From positions 1 to 38,703 of the forward strand of contig CAMAGM010000009.1 of assembly GCA_945833995.1 (NCBI GenBank): a stretch of DNA of 38,703 nucleotides, in the 5' to 3' direction. The DNA is from an uncultured Prevotella sp. (GTDB lineage: Bacteria; Bacteroidota; Bacteroidia; Bacteroidales; Bacteroidaceae). A program made the position numbers and the translations under genes. How positions within the stretch are numbered: position 1 is the first letter of the stretch; the number at the start of each line of letters is the position of its first letter. Below the pieces are notes generated by a model. The model had not been told where the DNA came from, ran no database searches, and saw only the letters and a list, made by a program, of their open reading frames with translations. Below are positions 7,164-32,780 of this stretch, one piece after another.

Positions 7164-10100
7164 ATGAGAAGAACCTACAAGACAATGTCTGTCATTTTCG
7201 CCTTGTTGCTGACAATGACATCATGGGCATCAAAACCCGACTTGAAATTCAAGAGACTTGATACACGCGACGGTCTCTCGAACTCACAGGTGAACTGCAT
7301 CCTGAAAGACTCAAAAGGATTTGTGTGGATAGGTACGAGATATGGGCTTGATCGCTACGACGGCACTCGCTTCCGCGTGTTCCAAGCCAATATCAAGGAC
7401 ACTACAACCTTGATAAACGACTATGTTGACAAACTCTATGAGGACATCGACGGATACATCTGGGTTCAGCAGGAGACGAGATACTGTGTCTATAATCCCA
7501 AGACAGAGCGTTTCGTGCGCGACCTCACGCCATGGACAAAGAAGGCGCATGTGGAAGGCAATGTGGAGAAAGTGCATATCGACCAGCGCAAGAACTACTG
7601 GATAAAGGCCTGGGACCACGACCTCTTCTACTATAACCCAAGGACAGGCAAGAGGGCTACATTCGTCATGGGCAAGGAAAGGAACGGAGTGAAGGAGAAC
7701 GTGCGCATCACCTCGTTTGCCGACTATGGACGCAGCACTCTCATGGTCACTGACAGGGGCATCATAACCTGTTTCGACGGCGAGAAGGGACGTGTGGCAT
7801 GGGTGTCAAACCATGTGGCGAAGTTGAGGGCATCGGAGGTTTTGGACTATCGTCTCTATATCGACAGGCATGGAAACTACTGGGTGTTGGGCGGTGGCAG
7901 ATGCCATGTCTATTCCCATAGCCATAAGCGCTGGTTCGACTCGCTCAACGACTATCTCAAGGTGCGTGGCTTGGCAGCCCTGTCAGGCAATGTCGTCACT
8001 TGGGACGTAATGGAGGACCTCGACGGACGCGTGTGGGTTGCCACCGACCATGACGGACTTTACATCATCGATTTCCAACAGAAGGATATCTACAACTACA
8101 CCAACGACAAGGCAAACGATAAAACAATCTCGGACATCTCCCTCGTGAAACTATATTGTGACCCAGAGGGACAGATGTGGATTGGAACATACACTGGCGG
8201 CGTGAACCAAGTGGTGAGGAGCAACGCCAACGTCAGCAACTTCTTCCTCGGAAGCGTTAACACCGTGGTGGAGGATCACGAAGGCAACTACTGGCTTGGA
8301 ACCAACGAGATGGGACTCATTCGCTACAATCCTTCCACCAGAAACAGCCAGACCTTCAACATGGCAAACGCGGGACTCTCGTCAAACGTGATAGTGGCAA
8401 GCCTCTGCGCCTCCGACGGCACGCTCTGGTTTGGCACCTACGGCGGAGGCGTGATACGCTATGCCAACGGGAAGTTTACGAGCATGCGCAAGGGCGACAA
8501 GCCTGGTTGCGTAGCCGACGACAACGTGTGGGCTGTGGTTGAGTCGCCCGACAAGAACATCTGGATAGGCACGCTTGGCGGCGGAGTGCAGTGCATAGAG
8601 AACGGCACGGAAACGATAACCACCTACAACCAGGCAAACTCACACCTTTCGAGCAACTATGTCTCGTCGATGCAGATGACCGATGCGGGCTGGATTGTGG
8701 TCGGCACGTCGAACAACTACTCGCTCATCGACCCCAAGACACGCAAGGTGGTGAACATGAAACTCGACCAGGACTCGTCGAGAATGACCGCCGTAACGGC
8801 TTCCAACACACAAGTCTATATGGACTCGCGAGGTCTCGTGTGGTATTGCTCACCTGCAGGTGTGCATGTGCTCGACAACTCCACAGGCCGTGTCACGCTC
8901 ATCGACCAGATGGCGGGATTGGCGGGAAACTCTGTGTGCGCCGTGATTGAGGACTCGAAGCACAACGTCTGGGTGACCACCGAATACGGCGTGTCGTGCA
9001 TCCTCATGACAAGTGCCAAGGGACACTGGAACTTCGACATCCGAAACTACAACAACCGCGACGGACTGCAGCCTGGACCGTACAACCAGCGCTCCATGTG
9101 CCTCACCCGCGACGGCAAGGTGCTTGTGGGCGGCAGCATGGGAATCGACATTATCGAACCCGAGCAGCTGAGCCGACAGGTCGTCTCTGGCAAGCCTTTG
9201 TTCAGTGGATTCCAGCTTTACGGACAGCAGATAGAGGTGGGCAAGGACTATGACGGAAGGGTGGTCCTGCCCGAGGCACTCAACGAGAGCCGACAGCTCA
9301 CGCTGCGATACAACGAGAACCAGTTCACCATACAGATGGCTTCCGACCAGGGACTTATCGGCAACCGCTCGCAGTATGTCTATATGATTGAGGGTTTCAG
9401 CGACAAGTGGATGAAGACCGAGGCGGGCAACCCCAACATCTCGCTCACGGGACTTGCGCCTGGCAGCTATACCCTTGTGGTGAAACTGCTCGACGACCGC
9501 AACCAGATGGGACAGGTGGAAAGCCGTCTCAACATCGTCATTACACCGCCGTTCTGGGGCACTTGGTGGGCATACGTCTTCTACATACTATTGGCTGTGG
9601 GACTGATTTACCTCTGGCATAAGCGCACCATACGCAAGCTGCACCTTGAGAAACTGAAGATGGAGGCTGAGGTTGAGAAGCGCAAGAAGCGTGAGGCTGC
9701 CGATGCCTACAACAACATGAACGAGGATCTGCGTGGAGCCTTCGACACCATTCTCACCAGACTCGATACCCTCATGAGCGGCGAGAACAACGAGCACCGC
9801 TACGAGCAGCAGCAGGAGATATTCGGCAACGTGGAGTCGCTCATGTCAACCGTCAACGATACCCTGTCGGCTTCCACTAAGTCGGAGGAAAGAAAGGAGT
9901 TCATTGAGCCAAAGATAAGCGACATGCAGATAGTGAGCCTCGACCAGCGTTTGGTCGATGCGGCTACGGCATACGTTGAGGAGAACCTGTCCAATGGCGA
10001 CATCACGGTGGAGACGATGAGTGAGGCACTCAATATGTCGCGCGTACATTTATATAAACGTCTCACGGCAATAACAGGCATGACCCCGTCGGAGTTCATA

Positions 10101-10265
10101 CGCGACTTGCGCCTGCGCCATGCCGAGCAGCTCATACTGCGGAGCCAGCTCTCAGTGAGTGAAATTAGCTATAAAGTCGGATTCAACAATCCACGCTATT
10201 TCTCCAAATATTTCAAGGAAAAGTATGGCGTTATACCCTCGCAATACAAAAAAGACACCATTTAA
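7164..10265 (+). CDS. HTCS-like transmembrane regulator: beta-propeller (Reg_prop) sensor, Y_Y_Y domain, one TM, coiled linker, AraC HTH; no recognizable kinase or receiver
   Basis: RLDTRDGLSNSQVNCILKDSKGFVWIGTRYGLDRYDG; YYY region RYNENQFTIQMAS...; TM WWAYVFYILLAVGLIYLW; C-terminal AraC MSEALNMSRVHLYKRLTAITGMTPSEFIRDLRLRHAEQLI. Confidence 0.9.
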   Translation: MRRTYKTMSVIFALLLTMTSWASKPDLKFKRLDTRDGLSNSQVNCILKDSKGFVWIGTRYGLDRYDGTRFRVFQANIKDTTTLINDYVDKLYEDIDGYIWVQQETRYCVYNPKTERFVRDLTPWTKKAHVEGNVEKVHIDQRKNYWIKAWDHDLFYYNPRTGKRATFVMGKERNGVKENVRITSFADYGRSTLMVTDRGIITCFDGEKGRVAWVSNHVAKLRASEVLDYRLYIDRHGNYWVLGGGRCHVYSHSHKRWFDSLNDYLKVRGLAALSGNVVTWDVMEDLDGRVWVATDHDGLYIIDFQQKDIYNYTNDKANDKTISDISLVKLYCDPEGQMWIGTYTGGVNQVVRSNANVSNFFLGSVNTVVEDHEGNYWLGTNEMGLIRYNPSTRNSQTFNMANAGLSSNVIVASLCASDGTLWFGTYGGGVIRYANGKFTSMRKGDKPGCVADDNVWAVVESPDKNIWIGTLGGGVQCIENGTETITTYNQANSHLSSNYVSSMQMTDAGWIVVGTSNNYSLIDPKTRKVVNMKLDQDSSRMTAVTASNTQVYMDSRGLVWYCSPAGVHVLDNSTGRVTLIDQMAGLAGNSVCAVIEDSKHNVWVTTEYGVSCILMTSAKGHWNFDIRNYNNRDGLQPGPYNQRSMCLTRDGKVLVGGSMGIDIIEPEQLSRQVVSGKPLFSGFQLYGQQIEVGKDYDGRVVLPEALNESRQLTLRYNENQFTIQMASDQGLIGNRSQYVYMIEGFSDKWMKTEAGNPNISLTGLAPGSYTLVVKLLDDRNQMGQVESRLNIVITPPFWGTWWAYVFYILLAVGLIYLWHKRTIRKLHLEKLKMEAEVEKRKKREAADAYNNMNEDLRGAFDTILTRLDTLMSGENNEHRYEQQQEIFGNVESLMSTVNDTLSASTKSEERKEFIEPKISDMQIVSLDQRLVDAATAYVEENLSNGDITVETMSEALNMSRVHLYKRLTAITGMTPSEFIRDLRLRHAEQLILRSQLSVSEISYKVGFNNPRYFSKYFKEKYGVIPSQYKKDTI

Positions 10266-10300
10266 TAACATTTTAGCACCTCTTTATCGGGAATAATGGC

Positions 10301-10308
10301 TAATTTTG
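10301..10308 (+). promoter_or_regulatory. Putative -7 element TAATTTTG upstream of the GH31-GH2-GH3 genes
   Basis: Matches TAnnTTTG, 42 bp upstream of the ATG; no clear -33 TTTG. Confidence 0.45.
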
Positions 10309-10349
10309 CACCGACAATCTGACAATAACTAAAATAAAAGAATAAGGAC

Positions 10350-13307
10350 ATGAGTTTAAGACTCCTATTAGTTTCGGCATTGCTTGCCACCTCTTTCGGC
10401 ACAGCTGTCAACGCCGACGCGGCTGCCTACCAGCGCGACGGCAGAAAGATTAGTCTTGAGATTCCTCAGACAAGTAAGAACAACGTCAGGGCAATGCGCC
10501 TCACGGTCGTCAGCGACGACATCATTCGAGTTGAGGCTACTCCCGACGAAGCTATACCAAACAAGCGGAAGAGCCTCGTAGTGGTCAACCGCGAGGGAAA
10601 GTACAAGGCTGACGTGAAGGAAGACGACAGTAGCCTCACGCTGCAGACGGCAAAGCTCACAGTGACCGTTGACAAGGCTACGGGTAAGCTGACATTCATC
10701 GACAGGACAACAGGAAAGGTGCTGCTCAAGGAAGCCGACGGCAGCAAGACTTTCACACGCTACGTCTCCTCGCAGACAGAACTGCCAGAGAACTATCGTC
10801 CTACTTCGCCCGACGAGGTGAACTGGGGCAAGACCTCCGATTTGAATAAACTGTCATTGGAAGACCGCTCTGGCTACTCCTGGCACGCACTCTTCGAGAG
10901 CGATCCCAACGAGGCTTTCTACGGCTTGGGTCAGCACCAGTCGGAGGAAATGAACTACAAGGGACGCAACGAGGAACTTTTCCAGTACAACACAAAGGTG
11001 TCAATCCCATTCGTAGTAAGCAACAAGAACTACGGCATTCTCTGGGATTCCTATTCCTACGGTCGTTGGGGTAATCCCAACAACTATCAGCAGCTCCACC
11101 GTGCCTTCAAACTCTACGACAAAAACGGCAAGCTTGGCTCGCTCTCCGGAACATACACCGAGAACACGGGCAAGATAATCGAGCGCGCAGAGGACTCTAT
11201 CTACTATGAGCACTCTGGCGTGGTTGGCCTGCTGCCACAGGACATCAACCTTGGCAACTCCAATGTCGTATATCAGGGCGAGATAGAGGCTCCACAGACG
11301 GCAAAATACCGTTTCATTCTCTACTATTCAGGCTATGTGAAGGTCTATATGGGCGGTCGCCTCGTTGTGCCAGAGCGTTGGCGCACGGCTTGGAACCCCA
11401 ATGCCTACAAGTTTGAGGTAGATCTGAAGAAGGGCGAGCGAACTCCGCTCCGCATTGAGTGGCAGCCCGACGGTGGCGTTGCCTACTGCGGTCTCCGTGC
11501 CGCCACTCCACAGACTGAGGCTGAGCAGGGTAGGGTGTCTATCTGGGCTGAGATGGACAAGGAGATGGACTACTACTTCATTGCCGGCAACAACTATGAC
11601 GACGTAATCAAGGGCTACCGCTTCCTCACAGGTCGTGCCCAGGTGATGCCAAAATGGGCGATGGGCTTCTGGCAGAGCCGCGAGAAGTATAACACCCAGG
11701 CAGAGGTGGAAGGTGTGCTCGGTGAGTTCCGCAAGCGTCAGATTCCAGTGGATGTCATGGTTCAGGACTGGCTCTATTGGGAGCAGGACAAGTGGGGCAG
11801 CTTCAAGTTCGACCTCAAGCGTTTCCCTGATCCAAAGGGAATGGTTGACTACATTCACGACAACAACGCCCGCATACTCATCTCACACTGGCCAAAATAC
11901 TATTCTTCGACCGATAACTACAAGGCTTTCGACAAGAATGGCTGGATGTATCAGCAGGCTATAAAGGACAACATCCGCGACTGGGTTGGCCCTGGCTATC
12001 TCGGCTCTTTCTACGATGCATATTCCGCAGGAGCAAGAAAACTGTTCTGGCAGCAGATGCACGACAATCTCTACACCCTCGGCATCGACTGCTGGTGGAT
12101 GGACGCATCGGAGCCTAACGTACGCGACTGCACTCCTATCGAGTATCGCAAGTTGCTCTGCGGTCCTACCGCCATGGGCACAAGCGAGGAGTATTTCAAT
12201 GCCTACTCGGTTGTAAATGCCGATGCCATCTACAACGGTCAGCGCTCGGTTGACAACAACAAGCGTGTGCTCCTGCTCACCCGAAGCGGATTTGCTGGCG
12301 AGCAGCGTTTCAGCACCGCTACTTGGAGTGGCGACATAGGCACTCGTTGGGAGGACATGCGCGCACAGATGACCGCTGGACTCAACTTCTCAATGGCTGG
12401 CGTTCCTTTCTGGGGAATGGACCAGGGTGGCTTCTGCGTTGAGAACCGCTATGTTGCCGCACAGCAGCTCTTCGACAAGTCGGGCTATGAGAACGAGGAT
12501 CTCAAGGAGTGGCGTGAGCTTAACGCACGCTGGAACCAGTTCGGTTGCTTCATTCCTCTCTACCGTACCCACGGACAGTGGCCTTTGCGTGAGGTTTGGA
12601 ACCTCGCTCCAGAGGGACACCCCTGCTACAACACCATCGTATATTACGACAAGCTCCGCTATCGCATGATGCCTTACCTCTATTCCATGGCTGGTTGGGT
12701 GAACTACAAGGACTACACCATGCTACGTGGTTTGGTCATGGACTTCGGTTGCGACGAGAAGGTGCTCAACATCGGCGACCAGTGGATGTTCGGTCCTGCT
12801 TTCATGGCTTGTCCTGTCGGCACTTACAAGGCTCGTTCCCGCGATGTCTATTTCCCAAAGCAGTGTGGTTGGTACGACCTCTATACTGGCAAGAAGTATG
12901 CTGGCGGACAGACGGTATCCGTGCCTGCTCCTTACGAGAAGATGCCCGTTTTCGTACGCGAGGGTGCCATAGTTCCTTTCGGTCCTGAGATTCAGTGGAG
13001 CGACGAGAAGAAGCCTGAGCTGATCAACCTTTATGTATATACAGGTGCTAATGGCGAGTTTGAGCTTTACGAGGACGAGGGCACTAACTACAACTATGAG
13101 AAGGGCAAGTCGTCGAAGATTCTCTTCCAGTGGGACGATGCCTCACAGACCCTCACCATAGGCACACGCCGTGGCTCATTCAACGGAATGTTGAAAAACC
13201 GCCGCTTCAATGTCGTGCTTGTCAAGGAAGGCACAGCACTCAACCTCGACAATCCTCAGGGCAAGGAGGTTCAGTACAATGGAAAGGCAGTTAATGTGAA
13301 ATTCTGA
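10350..13307 (+). CDS. Glycoside hydrolase family 31 (alpha-xylosidase/alpha-glucosidase-like) with PA14-like insert
   Basis: 985 aa; FYGLGQHQSEEMNYKGR, VDVMVQDWLYWEQDKWGSFKFDLKRFPDPKGMVDYIH, DCWWMDASEPN nucleophile motif; PA14-like VYQGEIEAPQTAKYRFILYYSGYVKVYMGGRLV. Confidence 0.92.
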   Translation: MSLRLLLVSALLATSFGTAVNADAAAYQRDGRKISLEIPQTSKNNVRAMRLTVVSDDIIRVEATPDEAIPNKRKSLVVVNREGKYKADVKEDDSSLTLQTAKLTVTVDKATGKLTFIDRTTGKVLLKEADGSKTFTRYVSSQTELPENYRPTSPDEVNWGKTSDLNKLSLEDRSGYSWHALFESDPNEAFYGLGQHQSEEMNYKGRNEELFQYNTKVSIPFVVSNKNYGILWDSYSYGRWGNPNNYQQLHRAFKLYDKNGKLGSLSGTYTENTGKIIERAEDSIYYEHSGVVGLLPQDINLGNSNVVYQGEIEAPQTAKYRFILYYSGYVKVYMGGRLVVPERWRTAWNPNAYKFEVDLKKGERTPLRIEWQPDGGVAYCGLRAATPQTEAEQGRVSIWAEMDKEMDYYFIAGNNYDDVIKGYRFLTGRAQVMPKWAMGFWQSREKYNTQAEVEGVLGEFRKRQIPVDVMVQDWLYWEQDKWGSFKFDLKRFPDPKGMVDYIHDNNARILISHWPKYYSSTDNYKAFDKNGWMYQQAIKDNIRDWVGPGYLGSFYDAYSAGARKLFWQQMHDNLYTLGIDCWWMDASEPNVRDCTPIEYRKLLCGPTAMGTSEEYFNAYSVVNADAIYNGQRSVDNNKRVLLLTRSGFAGEQRFSTATWSGDIGTRWEDMRAQMTAGLNFSMAGVPFWGMDQGGFCVENRYVAAQQLFDKSGYENEDLKEWRELNARWNQFGCFIPLYRTHGQWPLREVWNLAPEGHPCYNTIVYYDKLRYRMMPYLYSMAGWVNYKDYTMLRGLVMDFGCDEKVLNIGDQWMFGPAFMACPVGTYKARSRDVYFPKQCGWYDLYTGKKYAGGQTVSVPAPYEKMPVFVREGAIVPFGPEIQWSDEKKPELINLYVYTGANGEFELYEDEGTNYNYEKGKSSKILFQWDDASQTLTIGTRRGSFNGMLKNRRFNVVLVKEGTALNLDNPQGKEVQYNGKAVNVKF

Positions 13308-22096: not shown

Positions 22097-23527
22097 CTAT
22101 TTCACCCAAAAATTCGGCATTGATGTCTTAAACTCAATATCAATATAATGACATTGCTCCTTGATGATTCCACGTCGCCTAATTGCGGGTTGAAGACAAT
22201 AGTTGTCAAAATCGTCCTTCTCCACTTCGGCGAGATTTGTCCAATGTGGAAAGAGTAATTTCATATATGCGACTGCTATACGTTTTACGGCATTGAAATC
22301 ACGAGTGTCCGCATTCTTGTCACATCCTACCAATTCATCAAAAAGCAAGCCATAGATATTTTGCGTTCTTAACGAATGTAGTATTTCGGAGAAATATTCA
22401 ACATTAATTGTCCAACCTTTATATATTATGCCTTTGTTTATACGAGGGAGGTGCCAACCCTCTATAAAACAATGGAAACGGTCAAGAAGAGCAGATTCAC
22501 GGAACGACTGTGGAAGGGAGTCGAAATATCTGAAATTAAGCGGGCATCGCTGGTCATTCAAGGGGATATTGCCCATTATCATAAGCCCACATTCAGAAGT
22601 GAACTCATTGTTGTCTATTGTCGTTTTCCCTGATTCCAGATACGATTTTAATGCCGCTTGAATCTCTGCTGGCTCTTGGAATATAATAGTTTGTATTTCA
22701 TCAAAAGCAGTAAAATCATGGTTCTTAATAATGCCATTCTGTTGTTTTGCCTTGTCATAAAAAAGTTTTGCCCGTGTTACCTTACCTCCACTAACGAGCC
22801 AACCATATTTTGACAGATTTCCAAACACAAAAGATTTACCTGTCCCTTTGGGAGCAAGTTCTATAACATTCAGTCGTGGCTCTACAAATATAAGCAATCG
22901 AGTCAGGAACTCCATTTTCTGAGTCATAGTTTCAAAACCATCACTCTCATACTCCATTGCAGACAACAACACATCAACCCATTCCTGCACAGTAAAGGCT
23001 TTCCTTGCATTTCTAAAATAGTCGATATCGACAGAACGGTATGGTTTGAAAGGCTTGTAATCTACCATCTCAACATGGTTCTTCTTTCCATCCTCGTCAG
23101 GAAGAACAGACAGTTTAACGATATCCCATTTTTCACCATCCACCAATTCGCCCTGATGCTTCTTATAGACATATTCTGGTATCTGACCTTCATTCAGCTT
23201 TATCCCGAGGTCTGGGATAGCAAACCTACGAAGACCCTTAACCAAGTCAATGTATATTATAAATCTTGTCAGTAATGTTAGCTCATCTCCACCAGCAAGA
23301 CGGTCTTTCACTTCTGTCTGCTTCTGCGGAATCACCATATCCAAGAAAGACGTAAGTCCCATTCTGTCTACAGAACCATCGTTGATAATATATCGTTTCA
23401 ACACGAAATCCTTGACAAACGATGGAAGGTTACGCCCTGCAAACAAACTGTTGGTTGATACGGGGTCTTTATAAATTGCCATTGAAGAGAACAGTTCTCT
23501 TACTTTATTTGTAGTACTTGTCTGCAT
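22097..23527 (-). CDS. brxL: BREX BrxL-like AAA+ protein (short form)
   Basis: 476 aa; VIELAPKGTGKSFVFGNLSKYGWLVSGGKVTRAKLFYD, FTAFDEIQTIIF, LMIMGNIPL, SALLDRFHCFIEGWHLPRI typical of BrxL. Confidence 0.85.
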   Translation of the reverse strand: MQTSTTNKVRELFSSMAIYKDPVSTNSLFAGRNLPSFVKDFVLKRYIINDGSVDRMGLTSFLDMVIPQKQTEVKDRLAGGDELTLLTRFIIYIDLVKGLRRFAIPDLGIKLNEGQIPEYVYKKHQGELVDGEKWDIVKLSVLPDEDGKKNHVEMVDYKPFKPYRSVDIDYFRNARKAFTVQEWVDVLLSAMEYESDGFETMTQKMEFLTRLLIFVEPRLNVIELAPKGTGKSFVFGNLSKYGWLVSGGKVTRAKLFYDKAKQQNGIIKNHDFTAFDEIQTIIFQEPAEIQAALKSYLESGKTTIDNNEFTSECGLMIMGNIPLNDQRCPLNFRYFDSLPQSFRESALLDRFHCFIEGWHLPRINKGIIYKGWTINVEYFSEILHSLRTQNIYGLLFDELVGCDKNADTRDFNAVKRIAVAYMKLLFPHWTNLAEVEKDDFDNYCLQPAIRRRGIIKEQCHYIDIEFKTSMPNFWVK

Positions 23528-23529
23528 AT

Positions 23530-25938
23530 TTAGAAACCGAATAAGTCATCCTCCTGCACACCAATATTGATGTTCAGAGAGTCTGTTTGTTTATAATCAC
23601 CTATTTTCAACACTATTTTTGAAGCAGTTGCCACGAGGTTAAGTCGCTCACTCTCAAACGTGTCTCCTTTTGTGCGACGCAAAGAATAAGTAACACCATT
23701 GTACACAACTGCAGGAATATCAATACTGCTTACTCCCTTTATTATGTATTTTACTATTGGATTATTCGCCGAGATATCATGCTCCAACAGCTTTGCAGAT
23801 ACGTCTGATGCGTTCTTCTGGCTGGAAACTATAACGACGGGGACAAGAACCTCTTCTGGCGTTGCCCCTCCATGGGCTCCCTGACCATTTGGTGTTTTTG
23901 ATGTTAGCGAGTTATGTGTAAGCGAGCATAAAGTTTTTCCATCTTCCAAGATAATATAATTATCATCTTTTACCACTTTGTTGTCGGTAAAATTCGCACA
24001 CCGTCCACCATGGTCAGCTTCTATTCCAGCTATATTCAGCCCTTTTCCCAAACATGCCAAATAGCTTAAGCCATGATCAGCCACAAAGGCTATTTTCTTT
24101 CCATTATATTGTGCAAGTACTTGAAGAATCGCTTTCTCCACTATTTGCATCTCTTCAATAAAATAGAGCGGATATTCCTTTTGGCTATGGGCATAATGGT
24201 CGAGGTCGCCTATCTTACTTATGCCAGGTGCCAGTTCCTCCAACTTAATTTTGTTTACCATCGTGGTAGTAGGGAGTTCTGCTGTACAGATATGTATCTC
24301 ATTTAGGTATACCCCATCGAGCCTATGCCTTTCTATTGCTTTAGAGATAAAAGGAATCCAATCAACGCCAAGACCATCAATCCAATAATAAACGTCAATG
24401 TCACTTCTGCTATTCATTAATGTCTTAACCGTCTTAAACCTACTCCTCCACGAGTCAAATGTCACCTCATTAGCATTCCTTTCCTTCAAGCATTCTACCA
24501 ATCGTGGAGAAATTGAACATGCGAGTTTGGACTTTTTGTATTCTTCAAAATATTCATTTACCCACATGTTGCCCTCTGACATCTGCAAACTAAAGATAGA
24601 GGTATAGCTATACAACAAAGGGAACAAGTCTTTTACCATTTCCCTTTGTATAGCATCTTTCCCCAGCCATTCCACCATTAGGCATTTTTCAGAAATGGTC
24701 AAAGAGGACATGTATTTCATAGCTTGGAAATAACCACGCTCTGGGTCTGCGGCAATAGCCATCAGCTTGGCCTTGACTTTCCTTTCTGCCCACTCGGTGA
24801 TTTGGACGTTATGTTTAGCGGCTTCCTTCAAAAGCATGCAACGCACTCGTAAATCTTTCTCGCTAATTGCCTCATCAAATGCCAATGTTGCCAATAGCGA
24901 GAATAGCTCCGACGTGCCAAGTGACGAGGATTTGCGTAATGCTTTTGAAAGATATGTTTCTTCGTCAATATGTTGTAGGTAATAGATTTTCAGTAGCCAG
25001 CGTGAGAAATCGTCTTCACATTCAAACCACGTTTCAACAAAGGAAACCGCATCTGTAAGATTGTAAGAATTGAATTTGCGGTTAACGAATTGCTCTAAAT
25101 CAAAGTCTTCAATATCTATAAGATGGGCGAGTTTTCCCCAATAATCCATATTGTCTTTAGGATTATCATCTGTCCCAACGCTTACTCCAAGCCCATTCCT
25201 CAAAAAATCATACGCATTTCTACAAACAACATATTCAAAGGCATTGTCTGGTTGCGCGTTATGCGCATTATTGAACAAAGACTTTGACGTACAGATTATC
25301 TGTTGACATACTTTATTGCCAACTTTCCATAAATCAATCCATTGCCTAACGTTGGAACAAATGGTGTATTTGCCCGACAATCCTTTTACTCCGTATGTAC
25401 TCTCTGCCAATATAAGCTTATAGTTGTCACCAGTTGTAGCAGAATGGTATTCCCATATATGTATGTTGGGGTCATCCTTGAACTTGCTGACCTTACCTTG
25501 CATTCCAATAACTGGCACATATATACGTTGATGCCCACGCTGCGCCTCTTCTGGAGATTGAATAAGACGTATGGTCTGCAACAAAGAGTCAAACTCCGCA
25601 TAGTTCCCATTATCATAAAACCGTGCTATTTCGGAGAATGGGGCTATGACAAAATCATTAGCGGGGAGACTCTTCACATACTCTTCAAAACGCATGGCGA
25701 GTTGTGAATATGTAATTAATTGGTCATCGTATTCGTCTGCCATCCACTTGTCTATTCCTTGCACATAGACATTGTGGTTACTACATTCAAGGACGAACTC
25801 ATTGAAGTCGCTGAACTTCTCAAAGAGGACAAACCTTAGTGGATACCGGTTACGCAATGCGCTTTCGGCTCCCACCCAGTTTTTGTCTTCCTCAATCTCC
25901 TTATAGAGTTCGTCAAGCGTTTCAAAAGCCTTATACAT
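23530..25938 (-). CDS. pglZ: BREX PglZ alkaline-phosphatase-superfamily protein
   Basis: 802 aa; VYYWIDGLGVDWIPFI, KIAFVADHGLSYLACLGKGLNIAGIEADHGGRC, GAHGGATPEEVLVPVV typical of PglZ C-terminal domain. Confidence 0.88.
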   Translation of the reverse strand: MYKAFETLDELYKEIEEDKNWVGAESALRNRYPLRFVLFEKFSDFNEFVLECSNHNVYVQGIDKWMADEYDDQLITYSQLAMRFEEYVKSLPANDFVIAPFSEIARFYDNGNYAEFDSLLQTIRLIQSPEEAQRGHQRIYVPVIGMQGKVSKFKDDPNIHIWEYHSATTGDNYKLILAESTYGVKGLSGKYTICSNVRQWIDLWKVGNKVCQQIICTSKSLFNNAHNAQPDNAFEYVVCRNAYDFLRNGLGVSVGTDDNPKDNMDYWGKLAHLIDIEDFDLEQFVNRKFNSYNLTDAVSFVETWFECEDDFSRWLLKIYYLQHIDEETYLSKALRKSSSLGTSELFSLLATLAFDEAISEKDLRVRCMLLKEAAKHNVQITEWAERKVKAKLMAIAADPERGYFQAMKYMSSLTISEKCLMVEWLGKDAIQREMVKDLFPLLYSYTSIFSLQMSEGNMWVNEYFEEYKKSKLACSISPRLVECLKERNANEVTFDSWRSRFKTVKTLMNSRSDIDVYYWIDGLGVDWIPFISKAIERHRLDGVYLNEIHICTAELPTTTMVNKIKLEELAPGISKIGDLDHYAHSQKEYPLYFIEEMQIVEKAILQVLAQYNGKKIAFVADHGLSYLACLGKGLNIAGIEADHGGRCANFTDNKVVKDDNYIILEDGKTLCSLTHNSLTSKTPNGQGAHGGATPEEVLVPVVIVSSQKNASDVSAKLLEHDISANNPIVKYIIKGVSSIDIPAVVYNGVTYSLRRTKGDTFESERLNLVATASKIVLKIGDYKQTDSLNINIGVQEDDLFGF

Positions 25939-25941
25939 ATA

Positions 25942-28900
25942 CTACGAATTTATTCTGTCCAACAACCATTCGCCGCCTTCGTCGCATAATTTATTCAAGA
26001 GAGCCAACGCAACATTCAGGGAAGATATGCTCGCAATGTGCTCCTTCGCTTTTTTCCGCTTCTCGGCTATTACGCTATAGTTTGGCATTTGCTCGCCAAC
26101 TCGTGTAGGAGTGTCGTTACGTTCTTCAACTTTTGTCCATTCCTTGTTTGAAGTTTGCTCCAAACGCCAGTTCTTGGCTCTTGCAACCACTTCCTCCTCC
26201 GTCCAGTAACCTACAGTTGATTGCAGATTCTGCTCAATATACTTTCTAACTTCATCCAGCTCGTCATCCTTAAGATTTATCAGCTCTATCTGTTTCAGGA
26301 AATTGTCAAATCCCTCAGCAAAAATATTCTCAATATTAAGAATATTCTTCATCTCAATACGCATCTCGTCAATCAAAGCCAGTGTCTCGTTAACCAACGC
26401 AGGATTGCGCAGCTCCCTTTCCATACAAATCTGCACTATATCATCAACAAGTTTTTTCACTTCGTCTGTGATGGAAACGCTAAAAGGAAGATTGGAAAAT
26501 GCTTTCTCAGAGGCATATTTGATAGCCCATAGAGGACGATTCTTCTTTCCAAGGAATTCCGCAGTAATGGCATAACGGGCATCCTTCAGACTTGTCACGT
26601 CATTATAGGTGTTGTCCTTACTGTTGAGTTTGAACAATGATATTAGAGCTTTGCACAGTTTGCCCTCTTCAGGTGTTTGGAACTTGAAGTTGAGTTTGCT
26701 GTTCGACTTGTTGTCGTCCCAAACCTTAAAGAGCCATACAATATCGTCAATCAAAGCATTCTTGTCATGTGGTTTTCCTTGCATGTCGAATATTTTGTTC
26801 TCCCAACCTCGTAAGGCGAATGCTACCATAGCCATTGCGGAAAAACCTCCGTAAAGACCGTATGGCGGTTTTGTAAGCATAGAAAACTTGTCGTCGAAAT
26901 TGAATGGCAAACTCTTGTCGGCATATTTGATGATGCTATTCACCTTGTCATATACCTTTTTGAAAGGATGGTTTTCAGACACGTCGGTTTTCCATTGCAT
27001 ATTGTCGTCCAAACAGTCTTGAACAAGATATTGTATCGGGCGCATCTGCGCCGTGATTTCCGCCAACTCTGCTTTTGATGTCGCAAACAAGAAGGTACGC
27101 ACAATCTCCTTCGAGTTCTGTTGTTTCCAGAAAGTAGAAGGTGCTTTTTGTCGCAGTATCTCACAAGCATCTGGTCCGTATGGATAGATTGTTGGAGCAA
27201 CAGCAGAGTTCACTATGCTCGAAAGATGTTTCACCGATATAGGTTGTTTCTCATTGCCGCTAATATATATTATGGCATTGTTGCGTTGGGCTGCCTCCAT
27301 CCAGTCTTTTACCATTCCTATTGCATGGTCTCTATGGACTTTCTGTTGGTCAATAAATCCATGACTACTTGCACACGCATAATTTGCCTGATATTCTATG
27401 AACTGTTCGTATCTGCCATCGGTCATTACCTCGTCGAAAACAATATATACTATGTTTTGCAAATCCTTGTCTTGTTCGTCATTTGCACAACTTTCTGCAA
27501 AAGTTCGCAATGTGGCAAGCTCAATGTTGTTGCGTGCCATTAGTAGGGCAAAGAACAAGGCACTACCCTTCGTTTCTCTGCGTCCATTCTTAATCTGGCT
27601 GCGCAAAGAAGAATCATTTTGAACGTCTGAATAGAATTTGTAGTTATACGGACGAATTACCTTCTGCATATATTTCTTTTCAAACAAATTCGATGCAGCA
27701 TCAGAGAAGTTGAGTATCTGGTGGGTAAAACGGAACTGTACGTTTCTCATCTCCGTTTTCTTTTCCTCAATCTCACCAGAAGGCAAGGCTGAGAACTGAA
27801 CGGAATAAAGACCTCCTGGGGCACGCTGTATTATTCCTTGCTCATTAAACCATTGAAGCACAGTGTCAACCATTCCTTCATAGCGTGAGCCTTGGTAAAG
27901 TGCCTTTATGTTGTCCTCTGAAGGTGTAACGAGTCCGTTGTTATTCTCTCCAGACACATTATTGAATGCGTTGAGCAATAATATCCCTTTGAAAACGGCA
28001 TAATAAGCATCACCCTCATTGGCAACCTGAAGGCGGTAGGAGTTGAAACGCTCGGTCACTGCGCCATAATTTGTCACATCGTCTTGGAACACCTTTAGAA
28101 CGTAATCCCATAAATAGTCGGCAGTTATTGTATCGCCGTTCAAATATGCCTCTTCATTATCCAAGAAATCTCTTATGGCATCATTCTGCCCCAAGAACTC
28201 GAATACACTACGGCTTGATGAGCCAACAACAGTCGCATAGTGAGTTGCAAGATTAGCTGTTCCGGGATGCAATGGGTAAAGATTGAAAAGGTCTGCCTTA
28301 GTTGATTCCGGGTCATTGCTTGTCTGCGTGAAGACAGTGAGCAGTTCCGGATTTTGTTGATAAAATCTTAGGCACATCTGTTCGTGTCGCTCCTTATTCA
28401 AAATCTCAAACTTGCGCGACATAATCTTGAAAGCCGATACCGACTCCATATTGTATTTTTCCCGATGGTAACGGCCATCGGTTTGTTTCAATTGCTCAGA
28501 GTTGAATTTGTCAAAGGCTGACGGATGTGAAATAAGGAACATGAAAGAGTTGTTCTCTTCGTTGGCAAAACGCTCCGCAATCTCTTGCAGCTCTTTTAGG
28601 ACTGGAATGCCTATGGCATTGGTCATCACATCGGTGAACTCATCCCAAACAATCAGCAGACCATTATAAGTCCCCATTTCCGCAAGTTTATCTTGCACTT
28701 CTATGAGCCATTGTTTGATGTTTTCGTTGTTCATGCGCACGTCAAGACCTGTCTCACGCAGTGTGTCAGATATTCTATGGAACGTACCGAGGTCGTTGTT
28801 CCTTAAATTGTCAATCAGTTGGGAGCTGTTCGATACAATTGAGGAAAGTGCAGTATAGGTTTCGACCAAATGTTCCCATATTTCTTTGTGGTTTTCAATA

Positions 28901-29391
28901 TGATTGATATAACTCTCAAAGTCCGTTGGCACTGATACTTCTATCTTCTTTGCCTTGAGAGTTGCCATCACAGCTTTTTGCAACACAAGGGCAAGGTCGA
29001 GAGGATGTGTCATGGCTGCAAGGCCATAAACTTTCACGGTGAGCAGACGCTTCTCCTCACGCAAGTTATATATGGCATTTCTAATTGTGGCAAATTTTTC
29101 ATCACCATATTCATAATCCACCCATTCCCTTATACTATTAATATCGTCACCAAGTAAATGGCTCAATACGGCAACAGCATGGCTCTTTCCTGTGCCGTAA
29201 GTTCCGTTTAGCCAAAACGACTTATGGCTATCAAGATCATTGCCTCTCACTGCCTTCAGCACAGTGCGAAGCACCTTGTTAAACTGTTCATTAGGGATGA
29301 ACGATGTCCACTCCCCCTGTTTTTCGTCTTCTATGTTGTAGGCAGCCTTGCCACCACGCAACTTTATTATGTCGTCATATTTTGTAGCCAT
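25942..29391 (-). CDS. brxC: BREX P-loop protein BrxC (type 4 form)
   Basis: 1149 aa; Walker A SFWLNGTYGTGKSHAVAVLSHLL; Walker B-like GLLIVWDEFTDVM; large BrxC-like architecture. Confidence 0.85.
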   Translation of the reverse strand: MATKYDDIIKLRGGKAAYNIEDEKQGEWTSFIPNEQFNKVLRTVLKAVRGNDLDSHKSFWLNGTYGTGKSHAVAVLSHLLGDDINSIREWVDYEYGDEKFATIRNAIYNLREEKRLLTVKVYGLAAMTHPLDLALVLQKAVMATLKAKKIEVSVPTDFESYINHIENHKEIWEHLVETYTALSSIVSNSSQLIDNLRNNDLGTFHRISDTLRETGLDVRMNNENIKQWLIEVQDKLAEMGTYNGLLIVWDEFTDVMTNAIGIPVLKELQEIAERFANEENNSFMFLISHPSAFDKFNSEQLKQTDGRYHREKYNMESVSAFKIMSRKFEILNKERHEQMCLRFYQQNPELLTVFTQTSNDPESTKADLFNLYPLHPGTANLATHYATVVGSSSRSVFEFLGQNDAIRDFLDNEEAYLNGDTITADYLWDYVLKVFQDDVTNYGAVTERFNSYRLQVANEGDAYYAVFKGILLLNAFNNVSGENNNGLVTPSEDNIKALYQGSRYEGMVDTVLQWFNEQGIIQRAPGGLYSVQFSALPSGEIEEKKTEMRNVQFRFTHQILNFSDAASNLFEKKYMQKVIRPYNYKFYSDVQNDSSLRSQIKNGRRETKGSALFFALLMARNNIELATLRTFAESCANDEQDKDLQNIVYIVFDEVMTDGRYEQFIEYQANYACASSHGFIDQQKVHRDHAIGMVKDWMEAAQRNNAIIYISGNEKQPISVKHLSSIVNSAVAPTIYPYGPDACEILRQKAPSTFWKQQNSKEIVRTFLFATSKAELAEITAQMRPIQYLVQDCLDDNMQWKTDVSENHPFKKVYDKVNSIIKYADKSLPFNFDDKFSMLTKPPYGLYGGFSAMAMVAFALRGWENKIFDMQGKPHDKNALIDDIVWLFKVWDDNKSNSKLNFKFQTPEEGKLCKALISLFKLNSKDNTYNDVTSLKDARYAITAEFLGKKNRPLWAIKYASEKAFSNLPFSVSITDEVKKLVDDIVQICMERELRNPALVNETLALIDEMRIEMKNILNIENIFAEGFDNFLKQIELINLKDDELDEVRKYIEQNLQSTVGYWTEEEVVARAKNWRLEQTSNKEWTKVEERNDTPTRVGEQMPNYSVIAEKRKKAKEHIASISSLNVALALLNKLCDEGGEWLLDRINS

Positions 29392-29409: not shown

Positions 29410-29859
29410 TTATTCTTGTTTCGTTAAATATCTCTCAATGATGCAACGCTTTAGGTATTCCCTATTTTCTGCTTCTTGTAAAAGGTCCCACAATTCATCG
29501 TCCAACTTTGCGTATAATAGATTCTCGCGGAGGTATTTGGCGGAGGGTGTATGCCCTTTTATTGGAGGTCTGCATTCCTTAATCCAACAAAGGTGATAGA
29601 ATTCCGAAGAACAAAGATGATAGTATGGAACTATAAATGGCACATGACCAATCTCATCGTAATATCTGTGTAATCCATCATAGCTATATATCAAATGTTC
29701 ATCATTCCACATTATTACATTTTGCTTCAATCTCATTAACGATATGTTTTCAACGATTGAAAGCAGAAAAAGCGGTTTGGCATTTGACTTTCCATTCACG
29801 CCGTTCCCTCTTCTTATTGCAAGTAACATTTCTTTGTATAACTGAATTGAAAAGTTCAT
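29410..29859 (-). CDS. Small BREX-embedded protein resembling the N-terminal (sulfur-binding-domain-like) region of HNH restriction endonucleases; no HNH motif
   Basis: 149 aa; pattern KPLFLLSIVE...PFIVPYYHLCSSEFYHL...LRENLLYAKLDDELWDLLQEAENREYLKRCIIERYL; 1-nt gap after brxP, 18-nt gap before brxC. Confidence 0.55.
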   Translation of the reverse strand: MNFSIQLYKEMLLAIRRGNGVNGKSNAKPLFLLSIVENISLMRLKQNVIMWNDEHLIYSYDGLHRYYDEIGHVPFIVPYYHLCSSEFYHLCWIKECRPPIKGHTPSAKYLRENLLYAKLDDELWDLLQEAENREYLKRCIIERYLTKQE

Positions 29860-29860
29860 C

Positions 29861-32371
29861 CTATAATAAAGATTTAAGAGCGGAAATTGGAGACAAATCC
29901 TCTCGCAATGTTATATGCTCAAGTCCCATCGATAATTCTGCGATTAAAACCCGATTGCTATCAGAAGATAAGTATCGTAATACTCTCAAAAGGTCATTTC
30001 TTGCTATGCCAAATTCTTTATATACTCCATTTACTTCTTCTTCTCTATATAAATCAGAGACCCTAAGCATAGATATTTCTTTTGTCTTGCCATATTTATA
30101 TAAAGAGTATGCAACCGCTTCTGGTGACAAATCGCTATATGGCAAACGCATCAATGAGAGTCCTTTTTGATCTTGACTTTCGAATTGTTTTAGTTCCTCG
30201 CCAATAGGAGAGTATTTGAACGTTTGTACCAATGCTTGAACTGCATATTTTATTGTTGTCTCCTTGAATGTTGGAAGAAAATACTCCGTTGCCAACCTAT
30301 CCATACTCTTTCTGTCAAACAAGATTGCAAACCCAAATGTCAATACAAACCACCTCATTAATGGGCTGTTATATGTGAGATTAATATGAATAAGTTCCCA
30401 AAGCAGTGTAGGGGAATCCCTGTTGATTTCAACGCACAACTCTCCAAAATCTGTAATATGTCCGTTCTCGTCAATTATTTCAGCATCTTTTAACCATGCC
30501 TTAAAACTTGGCACTTGTTTTACTCCAAGATAATTGTCTTTCCAAAATGACTCTGGGTCAGACAAATATTGATCCACCCATTCTTGATGAATACCAAATG
30601 TTCCGTATTTTGAAATCTTCATATTTGATGTATTTATTACTGTAGGTTTTAACAATGAATCTGCTACAATGCACCCGACATCATGATACTCCAAGCACTT
30701 ATGGCAATGAATGCATCTTGTTGTCTCTATTGATACATCAGGATAAACAGAAAGTGCTCCTGTCGGACATTCCAGCTCGCAAGACTCACAATTTATGCAA
30801 TATGCTGATTTGTATATTACTCTTCTTATCAAGTATCTTAATTGAATATTGTTGTTGTCGTACAAAATAAAACGATAATCGTTTATTTTTGATTGATAAT
30901 CAATTGAAAAGTTGAAAACTTCATCTTTGTACGACAATTCTCCCAGTACTTGGTTTCCTTTATATTTTACACTATATTTCCCTAAAGCGGAAAGCCATGT
31001 CAGCACATCCTTTTGGGAATAACTTACTTTAGCCTCCCATTTCGTAGAAGATGTTGATATTACAATGGAAGTTAGCGAATCTGAGAATTTTCCACTTCCC
31101 CTCATTTTCCATTTACGTTCGGATATATATTCCTCTTTATTGGGAATATTTCTTTCTTCAACCATATTCTCCAAACGAGAAAGAAATGGTTTGAGATTAC
31201 TATGATAGCAATTGTTCACTATCATATCATCCCATGGTGAACCAAATGGACAAAGAATACAACCAACTCTTGGTTTTCCTACCCTGTATGCACTATTAAT
31301 TGGCAGGTCGTGTCCAAAAAGATATAAAAATACTTCGGTAGTGTTCCATAAAAGAATAGGTCGCGCATTAACAACGAATCTGTGCTTTACGCCTTTGCCA
31401 ATTCGGTTGTAATCGCTTCGTTTGACTGACTCTTCAGCTCGAACACCTTCAAAGGCAATGAAATGACGTTGCTTTTGGCCTTTTGACAACAAAGCCCTAT
31501 ATAATGGCGCTGTCTTCATAACAGAACAACACCAACGATGTGTGTCACTGGGTGTACCAATTTTGTCCCAATAGTTTAACACCGACTCATGGTTACGGGC
31601 GGTATGGAATTTTAAGGCAGGAAATAAATCCTTGTAATATTTCTGTATCTCTTCATACAACGAGAGCGACGGAGGCAACTCATATCCTGTGTCGCTATAA
31701 ATAACCTCGAAATCAGTTGGAGGAATAGCACGAGTACACAAGTCGAGAACAACTTGCGAATCCTTTCCACCAGAGAAAGATGCAATGAAGCGGTCAATCT
31801 TTGTTGATAACAACACACGCTTACCTTCTTTTTGAGCAGCTTCTAAGGGCATGATGTCAAACGACTCACAATCCTGTTTAACAACTGCCATCTTTTGTTT
31901 ACTCTTTTTCTCTACTCGCTCTGCCATTGCCTCAAAATCCATTTTGTTGGCATCAGCTTTATCAAAAGTCTTGTTTACTTTAGAGTAGGCTGTGTAAGTG
32001 TCTCTAATAAACTCGATAGCTTCATTCTCCAAAACGAACATATAGTCAGATGTTTTTCGCAACATTGCATCAACATCCACAGGTATGAGCTTTTGCGGTT
32101 CTATACCTTTGCAAAACTCAAGAGTTGGCTTAGTGTAGATATTTGCTCCTTTCGCGTCAAAAATATGTTCACCTCTATACCAATATTGCTTGTTGATAGC
32201 CCACATGATGGGGGCATCACAATGAGGATAATCCCAACCGAGCTTGTTTAACCCTAATAAGTCAAGTTCTTCATAGAACACAGGACGAGGGGAGATACCC
32301 AATGTACCCTCCACTATGCGGGAATGTAATAACACGCCCCCAGTCTCCTTGTCCCATGTTATTTTATACAC
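29861..32371 (-). CDS. brxP: BREX type 4 BrxP: PAPS-reductase/DndC-like ATP-pyrophosphatase with 4Fe-4S ferredoxin-like motifs and C-terminal DUF4007-like region (ORF can extend to 32539)
   Basis: FIASFSGGKDSQVVLDLCTRAI PP-loop; HRWCCSVMKTAPLYRALL; CINCESCELECPTGAL and CIHCHKCLEYHDVGC; start set at in-frame GTG 32371 (MYKITWDKETGGVLLHS). Confidence 0.85.
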   Translation of the reverse strand: MYKITWDKETGGVLLHSRIVEGTLGISPRPVFYEELDLLGLNKLGWDYPHCDAPIMWAINKQYWYRGEHIFDAKGANIYTKPTLEFCKGIEPQKLIPVDVDAMLRKTSDYMFVLENEAIEFIRDTYTAYSKVNKTFDKADANKMDFEAMAERVEKKSKQKMAVVKQDCESFDIMPLEAAQKEGKRVLLSTKIDRFIASFSGGKDSQVVLDLCTRAIPPTDFEVIYSDTGYELPPSLSLYEEIQKYYKDLFPALKFHTARNHESVLNYWDKIGTPSDTHRWCCSVMKTAPLYRALLSKGQKQRHFIAFEGVRAEESVKRSDYNRIGKGVKHRFVVNARPILLWNTTEVFLYLFGHDLPINSAYRVGKPRVGCILCPFGSPWDDMIVNNCYHSNLKPFLSRLENMVEERNIPNKEEYISERKWKMRGSGKFSDSLTSIVISTSSTKWEAKVSYSQKDVLTWLSALGKYSVKYKGNQVLGELSYKDEVFNFSIDYQSKINDYRFILYDNNNIQLRYLIRRVIYKSAYCINCESCELECPTGALSVYPDVSIETTRCIHCHKCLEYHDVGCIVADSLLKPTVINTSNMKISKYGTFGIHQEWVDQYLSDPESFWKDNYLGVKQVPSFKAWLKDAEIIDENGHITDFGELCVEINRDSPTLLWELIHINLTYNSPLMRWFVLTFGFAILFDRKSMDRLATEYFLPTFKETTIKYAVQALVQTFKYSPIGEELKQFESQDQKGLSLMRLPYSDLSPEAVAYSLYKYGKTKEISMLRVSDLYREEEVNGVYKEFGIARNDLLRVLRYLSSDSNRVLIAELSMGLEHITLREDLSPISALKSLL

Positions 32372-32484: not shown

Positions 32485-32780
32485 AACTCGAGGCTTCTCG
32501 CATTGCCCAACAGTCGAGACGGACAACGCAGAAGCCCACGCATGAGGTATATAATAATCCATAGCGTGTTATTGCCTACATACATCAATGATATACATAC
32601 GACAAAACACGGCTGGAGATAATATACCAACCGTGGACATTCACCGTTGTCTTGTCCTTTGACTGTTAATTGTAACTTTGCGAGAATTACGAGTTGTCAA
32701 AGACAAGCGTCAGATAAACGCCCTTTTCATAAAGACTGCACCCGCCACTCTGCCCCTTGCGAAGCTTCTGCAACGGAATG
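32444..32780 (-). ncRNA. Candidate structured leader RNA or independent small RNA upstream of the BREX operon
   Basis: Promoter at 32787-32818; hairpins 32608-32635 (9 bp) and 32493-32535 (about 15 bp with one bulge); terminator-like end at 32444-32484. Confidence 0.45.

Follow-up and report, generated by a model that had tools for sequence, protein, structure and literature searches.

A contig of an uncultured Prevotella sp. (CAMAGM010000009.1 of assembly GCA_945833995.1; its positions 1 to 38,703, all 38,703 nucleotides, are called the window here) carries an intact type 4 bacteriophage exclusion (BREX) locus, in which BrxP, BrxC, PglZ of type 4, and BrxL are all found together by PADLOC, NCBIfam, and Pfam models. 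A small additional gene lies between brxP and brxC, so that the operon reads brxP, small gene, brxC, pglZ, and brxL. The product of this gene, a sulfur-binding domain (SBD) standing alone, is the subject of this analysis. The genes are as follows:

29410–29859, minus strand: standalone SBD protein, proposed reader of phosphorothioate (PT) DNA (open reading frame, PDB profile match, AlphaFold2 model, and Foldseek)
29861–32371, minus strand: brxP, PT writer of the PAPS-reductase family, 836 residues (PADLOC BrxP, 900 bits)
25942–29391, minus strand: brxC, ATPase (PADLOC, 1014 bits)
23530–25938, minus strand: pglZ of type 4 (NCBIfam NF033445, 754 bits)
22097–23527, minus strand: brxL (PADLOC, 708 bits; Pfam BrxL_ATPase, 380 bits)

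The SBD gene is an open reading frame of 149 amino acids with an ATG start. A preliminary description, made from the sequence without database searches, had placed a 149-residue protein at this position and quoted several motifs from it; the frame holds all of them. The 1-nt coupling to brxP that it reported is likewise found, with the brxP stop ending at 29861 and the SBD ATG at 29859, and the brxC frame starts at 29391, 18 nt past the end of the SBD frame. Among 18 loci, the spacing between brxP and the SBD gene ranges from −7 to +11 nt, and overlapping stop and start codons are frequent. The ratio of nonsynonymous to synonymous substitution rates (dN/dS) is about 0.07–0.13 in pairs of the same BrxP class with unsaturated dS, a rough value since dS is large. 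This ratio, and the recurrence of both the location and the close spacing across many species, show that the gene is not a chance reading frame.

Fold and putative sulfur pocket of the standalone protein

Homology and predicted fold both make the 149-residue protein a member of the SBD family. With the single sequence, a phmmer search of the PDB found SBDHga1 (8h0l) at E = 6.2e-5; a profile of ten BREX relatives matched the same structure at E = 5.7e-24 over positions 6–141, namely the whole domain, and a profile extended with SBDs from HNH and other proteins reached E = 2.4e-37. A template-free AlphaFold2 model was obtained with a predicted local distance difference test (pLDDT) score of 91.5 and a predicted template modeling (TM) score of 0.87. 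When this model was compared with the PDB by Foldseek, the only three matches at E ≤ 0.001 were two chains of 8h0l (best TM-score 0.80) and 5zmo. All of ranks 1–14 belong to the SBD family, including PT-DNA complexes of SBDs and the full-length ScoMcrA (5zmm), and below rank 14 there is weak likeness to winged helices of Cdc6/ORC. No Foldseek match at E ≤ 0.001 was found in a library of predicted viral structures. The ScoMcrA-type pattern recognized in the preliminary description is thus borne out, and the structural comparison that it had named beforehand as a test leads to SBD structures, not to an unrelated fold. Its remark that the protein ends before any HNH nuclease is also correct: the SBD covers the entire protein, and neither HNH nor another nuclease follows it. 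Searches against Pfam, NCBIfam, and PADLOC models gave no family match for the protein.

The sulfur cavity of ScoMcrA is lined by H116, R117, Y164, P165, and A168 (PMC6224610); in SprMcrA, helices 2 and 4 contribute the cavity residues Y31, Q32, Y78, P79, and A82 (PMC7470945). On the basis of motif, spacing, and alignment with Hga, the equivalents in the BREX protein are assigned to A27, K28, V77, P78, and H81. The sites concerned are:

29776–29781, minus strand: codons A27-K28, forming one half (the first) of the putative pocket, corresponding to H116-R117 of ScoMcrA and Y31-Q32 of SprMcrA (alignment)
29626–29628, minus strand: codon P78, pocket-floor proline, corresponding to P165 of ScoMcrA and P79 of SprMcrA (alignment)
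29548–29583, minus strand: codons 93–104, loop located where SBDSpr has its base-contacting loop A5 (model, alignment, and PMC7470945)

K28 and P78 are invariant in all 27 BREX relatives, and A27 is kept in 26. The lysine and the proline are also invariant in an alignment of 18 sequences including HNH-linked SBDs, in which the position of A27 is occupied by N, Y, or H in the HNH-linked members. In the model, K28 is on the second helix (27–40) and P78 on the fourth (76–84), matching the cavity helices 2 and 4 of SBDSpr. Among the relatives, block 93–103 is the most variable part, with 12% pairwise identity, and the loop is 6–12 residues long.

Distribution among type 4 loci

A scan of genome contigs with the single SBD sequence gave no matches, and a search of GTDB genome contigs with an SBD alignment as the query yielded 54 loci, 28 of which have the order brxP, SBD gene, brxC. 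These 28 are mostly from Prevotella and its relatives, together with Sanguibacteroides, Parabacteroides, an Odoribacter metagenome-assembled genome (MAG), and others; one is from a MAG with Erysipelotrichaceae in its title and is possibly a contaminant. The SBD gene is also found beside brxP in one phage-labeled record and one viral contig. In one locus, the SBD gene and brxC are separated by an inserted gene for an AAA_14/DUF4143 ATPase (L098:10537–11763), and in Prevotella pectinovora (L089:6379–6915 and 10001–10453) the in-operon SBD is frameshifted while a separate second SBD gene is located just upstream on the opposite strand.

Since this search selects for the SBD gene, a second tally was anchored on PglZ-4, which is present in 27 of 398 genomes of the window's genus. 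These comprise 20 with intact brxP–brxC junctions of the window's subclade (clade A), three with junctions cut by contig ends, and four of a second subclade. Owing to its PAPS-reductase part, the BrxP family model PDLC02510 matches 349 of 397 genomes and also 12 of 14 controls; matches to it were accepted only when E was below about 1e-80. Absence of the gene from most type 4 loci, which the preliminary description had named as speaking against its idea, is seen only in part: the gene is common in one Bacteroidales subclade (15 of the 20 intact clade-A junctions in the genus), but it is found at none of seven brxP–brxC junctions of the second subclade, whose BrxC is 25–29% identical, nor at that of an archaeal type 4 plasmid locus (L197), where the gene after brxL is annotated as DUF262. 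A link between loss of the SBD gene and BrxP class was considered and rejected, as losses occur inside classes: operons with and without the gene share a BrxP class in L178 versus L140 (84% in the C-terminal part of BrxP) and in L074 versus the window (71%).

SBDs occur elsewhere in related loci. In three of the seven second-subclade loci, a gene directly after brxL (L080:12961–13572, L084:6046–6675, and L081:10519–11340) encodes a protein of 203–273 residues ending in an SBD, and those of L080 and L084 start with a leader like EELELLLQIMQKHDLPMSPILEYA. Unannotated post-brxL proteins at L078:12845–14412, L079:5506–6498, L080:13527–15059, and L084:3711–6038 have a similar short leader and differing C-terminal parts, as if the leader were a common docking segment; a search with those of L078, L079, and L080 found no match in Pfam and PADLOC. 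A second nuclease-free SBD family (178–189 residues) is encoded beside a Pbe-like locus in Prevotella (L128:2692–10498 and L029:4452–10337), which in L128 shows PbeA (1058 bits), a PbeC-like ATPase, and a 626-residue protein with an SBD at its start.

Exchange of a block spanning brxP and the SBD gene

Operons exchange the N-terminal two thirds of the SBD protein jointly with the C-terminal two thirds of BrxP, and the last approximately 45 residues of the SBD protein stay with brxC. For example, the operons of P. vespertina (L108) and P. aurantiaca (L095) share 95.3% DNA identity as far as mid-brxP. BLASTN finds no similarity in the following 1.6 kb, after which identity is 99.7% over 10.1 kb, beginning around SBD codon 97. 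In protein comparisons, BrxP identity drops past residue ~300 of 836 in five of five pairs, and SBD identity is regained around residue 104 in the pairs compared, with the exception of L094/L096, in which it is regained around residue 76. Transferred to the window, the parts are:

29548–31472, minus strand: exchangeable block running from about residue 300 of the 836 in BrxP to about residue 104 of the SBD, inferred position mapped from related operon pairs, the window not being a close pair itself
29413–29547, minus strand: codons 105–149, conserved C-terminal part staying with brxC at upstream exchange (operon pairs)

Partial Mantel tests given BrxC distance, over 21 operons, agree with this division: SBD residues 1–103 follow BrxP 400–892 (partial r = 0.51–0.57, p = 0.0005) and do not follow BrxP 57–360 (r = −0.03). 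In the same operons, the SBD from residue 104 to the end follows BrxC (r = 0.86). Among 14 pairs with BrxC identity above 85%, identity of the SBD N-terminal part is at least 0.63 in the four pairs whose BrxP C-terminal parts average at least 0.84, and at most 0.54 in the ten pairs with BrxP C-terminal identity of at most 0.49; at lower BrxC identity, the high and low BrxP groups overlap in the identity of the SBD N-terminal part.

As for the writer itself, the listed brxP frame, starting from GTG at 32539, is over-extended, and the start was placed at GTG 32371 because homologues begin there, resulting in 836 residues. BrxP has a PAPS_reduct domain (Pfam, E = 4.3e-30), a 4Fe-4S motif, and a DUF4007-like C-terminus (DUF4007 at E = 0.0017, below the cut-off). 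A Foldseek search with its predicted model, of moderate quality (pLDDT 74.8), returned PAPS reductases and nothing decisive for the C-terminus.

A putative PT reader and its relation to known systems

Probably, the nuclease-free SBD protein is a PT reader belonging to one subclade of type 4 BREX. This reading rests on the SBD fold and homology, the conservation of the lysine and proline, the operon linkage in Bacteroidales, and the joint exchange with BrxP, the last of which indirectly supports the writer-reader pair proposed in the preliminary description. Several observations weigh against it. The position of the pocket histidine is alanine in 26 of 27 BREX relatives, and replacements at the same pocket position, H116I in ScoMcrA (PMC6224610) and Y31A in SprMcrA (PMC7470945), strongly weaken binding. 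The gene is dispensable: five of the 20 clade-A junctions (G069, G270, G836, G846, and G916) and one additional clade-A locus (G043:C110) are without it, and no SBD match was found anywhere in G069 and G270. L094 and L096 share the SBD from about residue 76 to the end, including loop 93–104, yet have only ~39% identity between their BrxP C-termini, while L093 and L094 belong to one BrxP class and differ in this loop; therefore, strict matching of the loop to BrxP class does not hold. In addition, the comparison covers a small number of operon pairs that are not independent, several having loci in common, and joint exchange is no proof of matched specificity because adjacent DNA recombines together. 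Matched specificity of reader and writer would explain the joint exchange, and linkage alone could do so too.

The same exchange, together with the 1-nt coupling and the frequent overlap of stop and start with brxP, is also expected if the protein is a subunit of the writer, which attaches to DNA with PT or hemi-PT marks, or to BrxP, and helps BrxP/BrxC to place or maintain marks; the exchange would then reflect a co-adapted BrxP-SBD interface, and the loop would not need to follow BrxP class, as in L094/L096. Modification is, however, apparently independent of the SBD, because some operons lack it although they share the BrxP class of operons that have it (the two comparisons given above), and this explanation is rather unlikely. 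The alanine in the pocket and the weak likeness to Cdc6/ORC winged helices could mean that sulfur recognition was lost and that the protein works only as a winged-helix adaptor for DNA or protein. This is doubtful, as K28 and P78 are fully conserved amid diverging surroundings, and N, Y, or H at the A27 position of HNH-linked SBDs indicates that this position tolerates change. Still less credit is given to the idea that the SBD reads PT to activate an anti-phage response rather than to spare self DNA. SspE of the Ssp system relies on host PT to act (PMC9646914), and other SBD proteins accompany PT systems, as in the Pbe-like loci, but the BREX-4 SBD protein, with only 149 residues, has no effector domain. 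A PT-responsive transcription regulator of the operon would fit the small winged-helix-like fold and the place among the first operon genes; its conserved position within the operon favors a stoichiometric partner instead, and this role is very improbable.

If the protein is indeed a PT reader, the PT sulfur would enter the pocket built by helices 2 and 4, and the variable loop 93–104 would contact neighboring bases, so that the sequence context marked by its own BrxP may be recognized. The conserved C-terminal part would dock on conserved machinery, most likely BrxC, and the status of the mark would be reported in this way to PglZ/BrxL, which would spare marked self DNA. A further step, plausible but more tentative, is that the block is a two-gene specificity cassette of BREX-4, in which the segment of the writer that recognizes the target and the segment of a separate reader that reads DNA are inherited and exchanged as one between conserved flanks. 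An operon with such a cassette would change its written and read specificity in one event. A dedicated reader beside the writer would make the use of sulfur marks in BREX-4 testable by deletion of one small gene, near-identical operons in which the writer/reader pair has been exchanged in nature offer specificity experiments that are already set up, and standalone SBDs with differing loops could serve as reagents for PT detection.

The protein shares with the SBDs of Hga (8h0l), ScoMcrA (5zmo), and SprMcrA (7cc9/7ccj) the fold, the Lys/Arg position of the pocket, the proline, and a variable base-contacting loop. The ScoMcrA and SprMcrA domains are parts of endonucleases, whereas the BREX-4 SBD is a separate 149-residue protein lacking the HNH domain that ScoMcrA-type PT-dependent endonucleases carry on the same chain, and it has alanine in place of H116 and Y31. 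Ssp is also a PT-based defense, and BrxC and BrxP match the SspC and SspD models of PADLOC; its PT-sensing partner SspE is an NTPase/nickase, unlike the SBD protein, which is without an enzyme domain. The locus has all four core genes of type 4 BREX (BrxP-BrxC-PglZ-BrxL) in the same order, with the SBD gene as an addition between brxP and brxC. In a 2026 survey of BREX, the components given for type 4 are BrxC, PAPS reductase, DUF4007, PglZ, BrxL, cysteine desulfurase, and a zinc-finger protein; the main-text passages on type 4 do not name an SBD (PMC12839542), in accordance with the preliminary description, which knew of no such standard component, and an earlier description may exist in PMC12914056. 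SBDs and BREX-4 are each known, and their combination, with the SBD as a nuclease-free, co-exchanged partner, appears to be new. Type I restriction specificity subunits likewise keep conserved flanks around a variable recognition segment that is exchanged; the block described here, by contrast, extends over two proteins, the writer and its putative reader.
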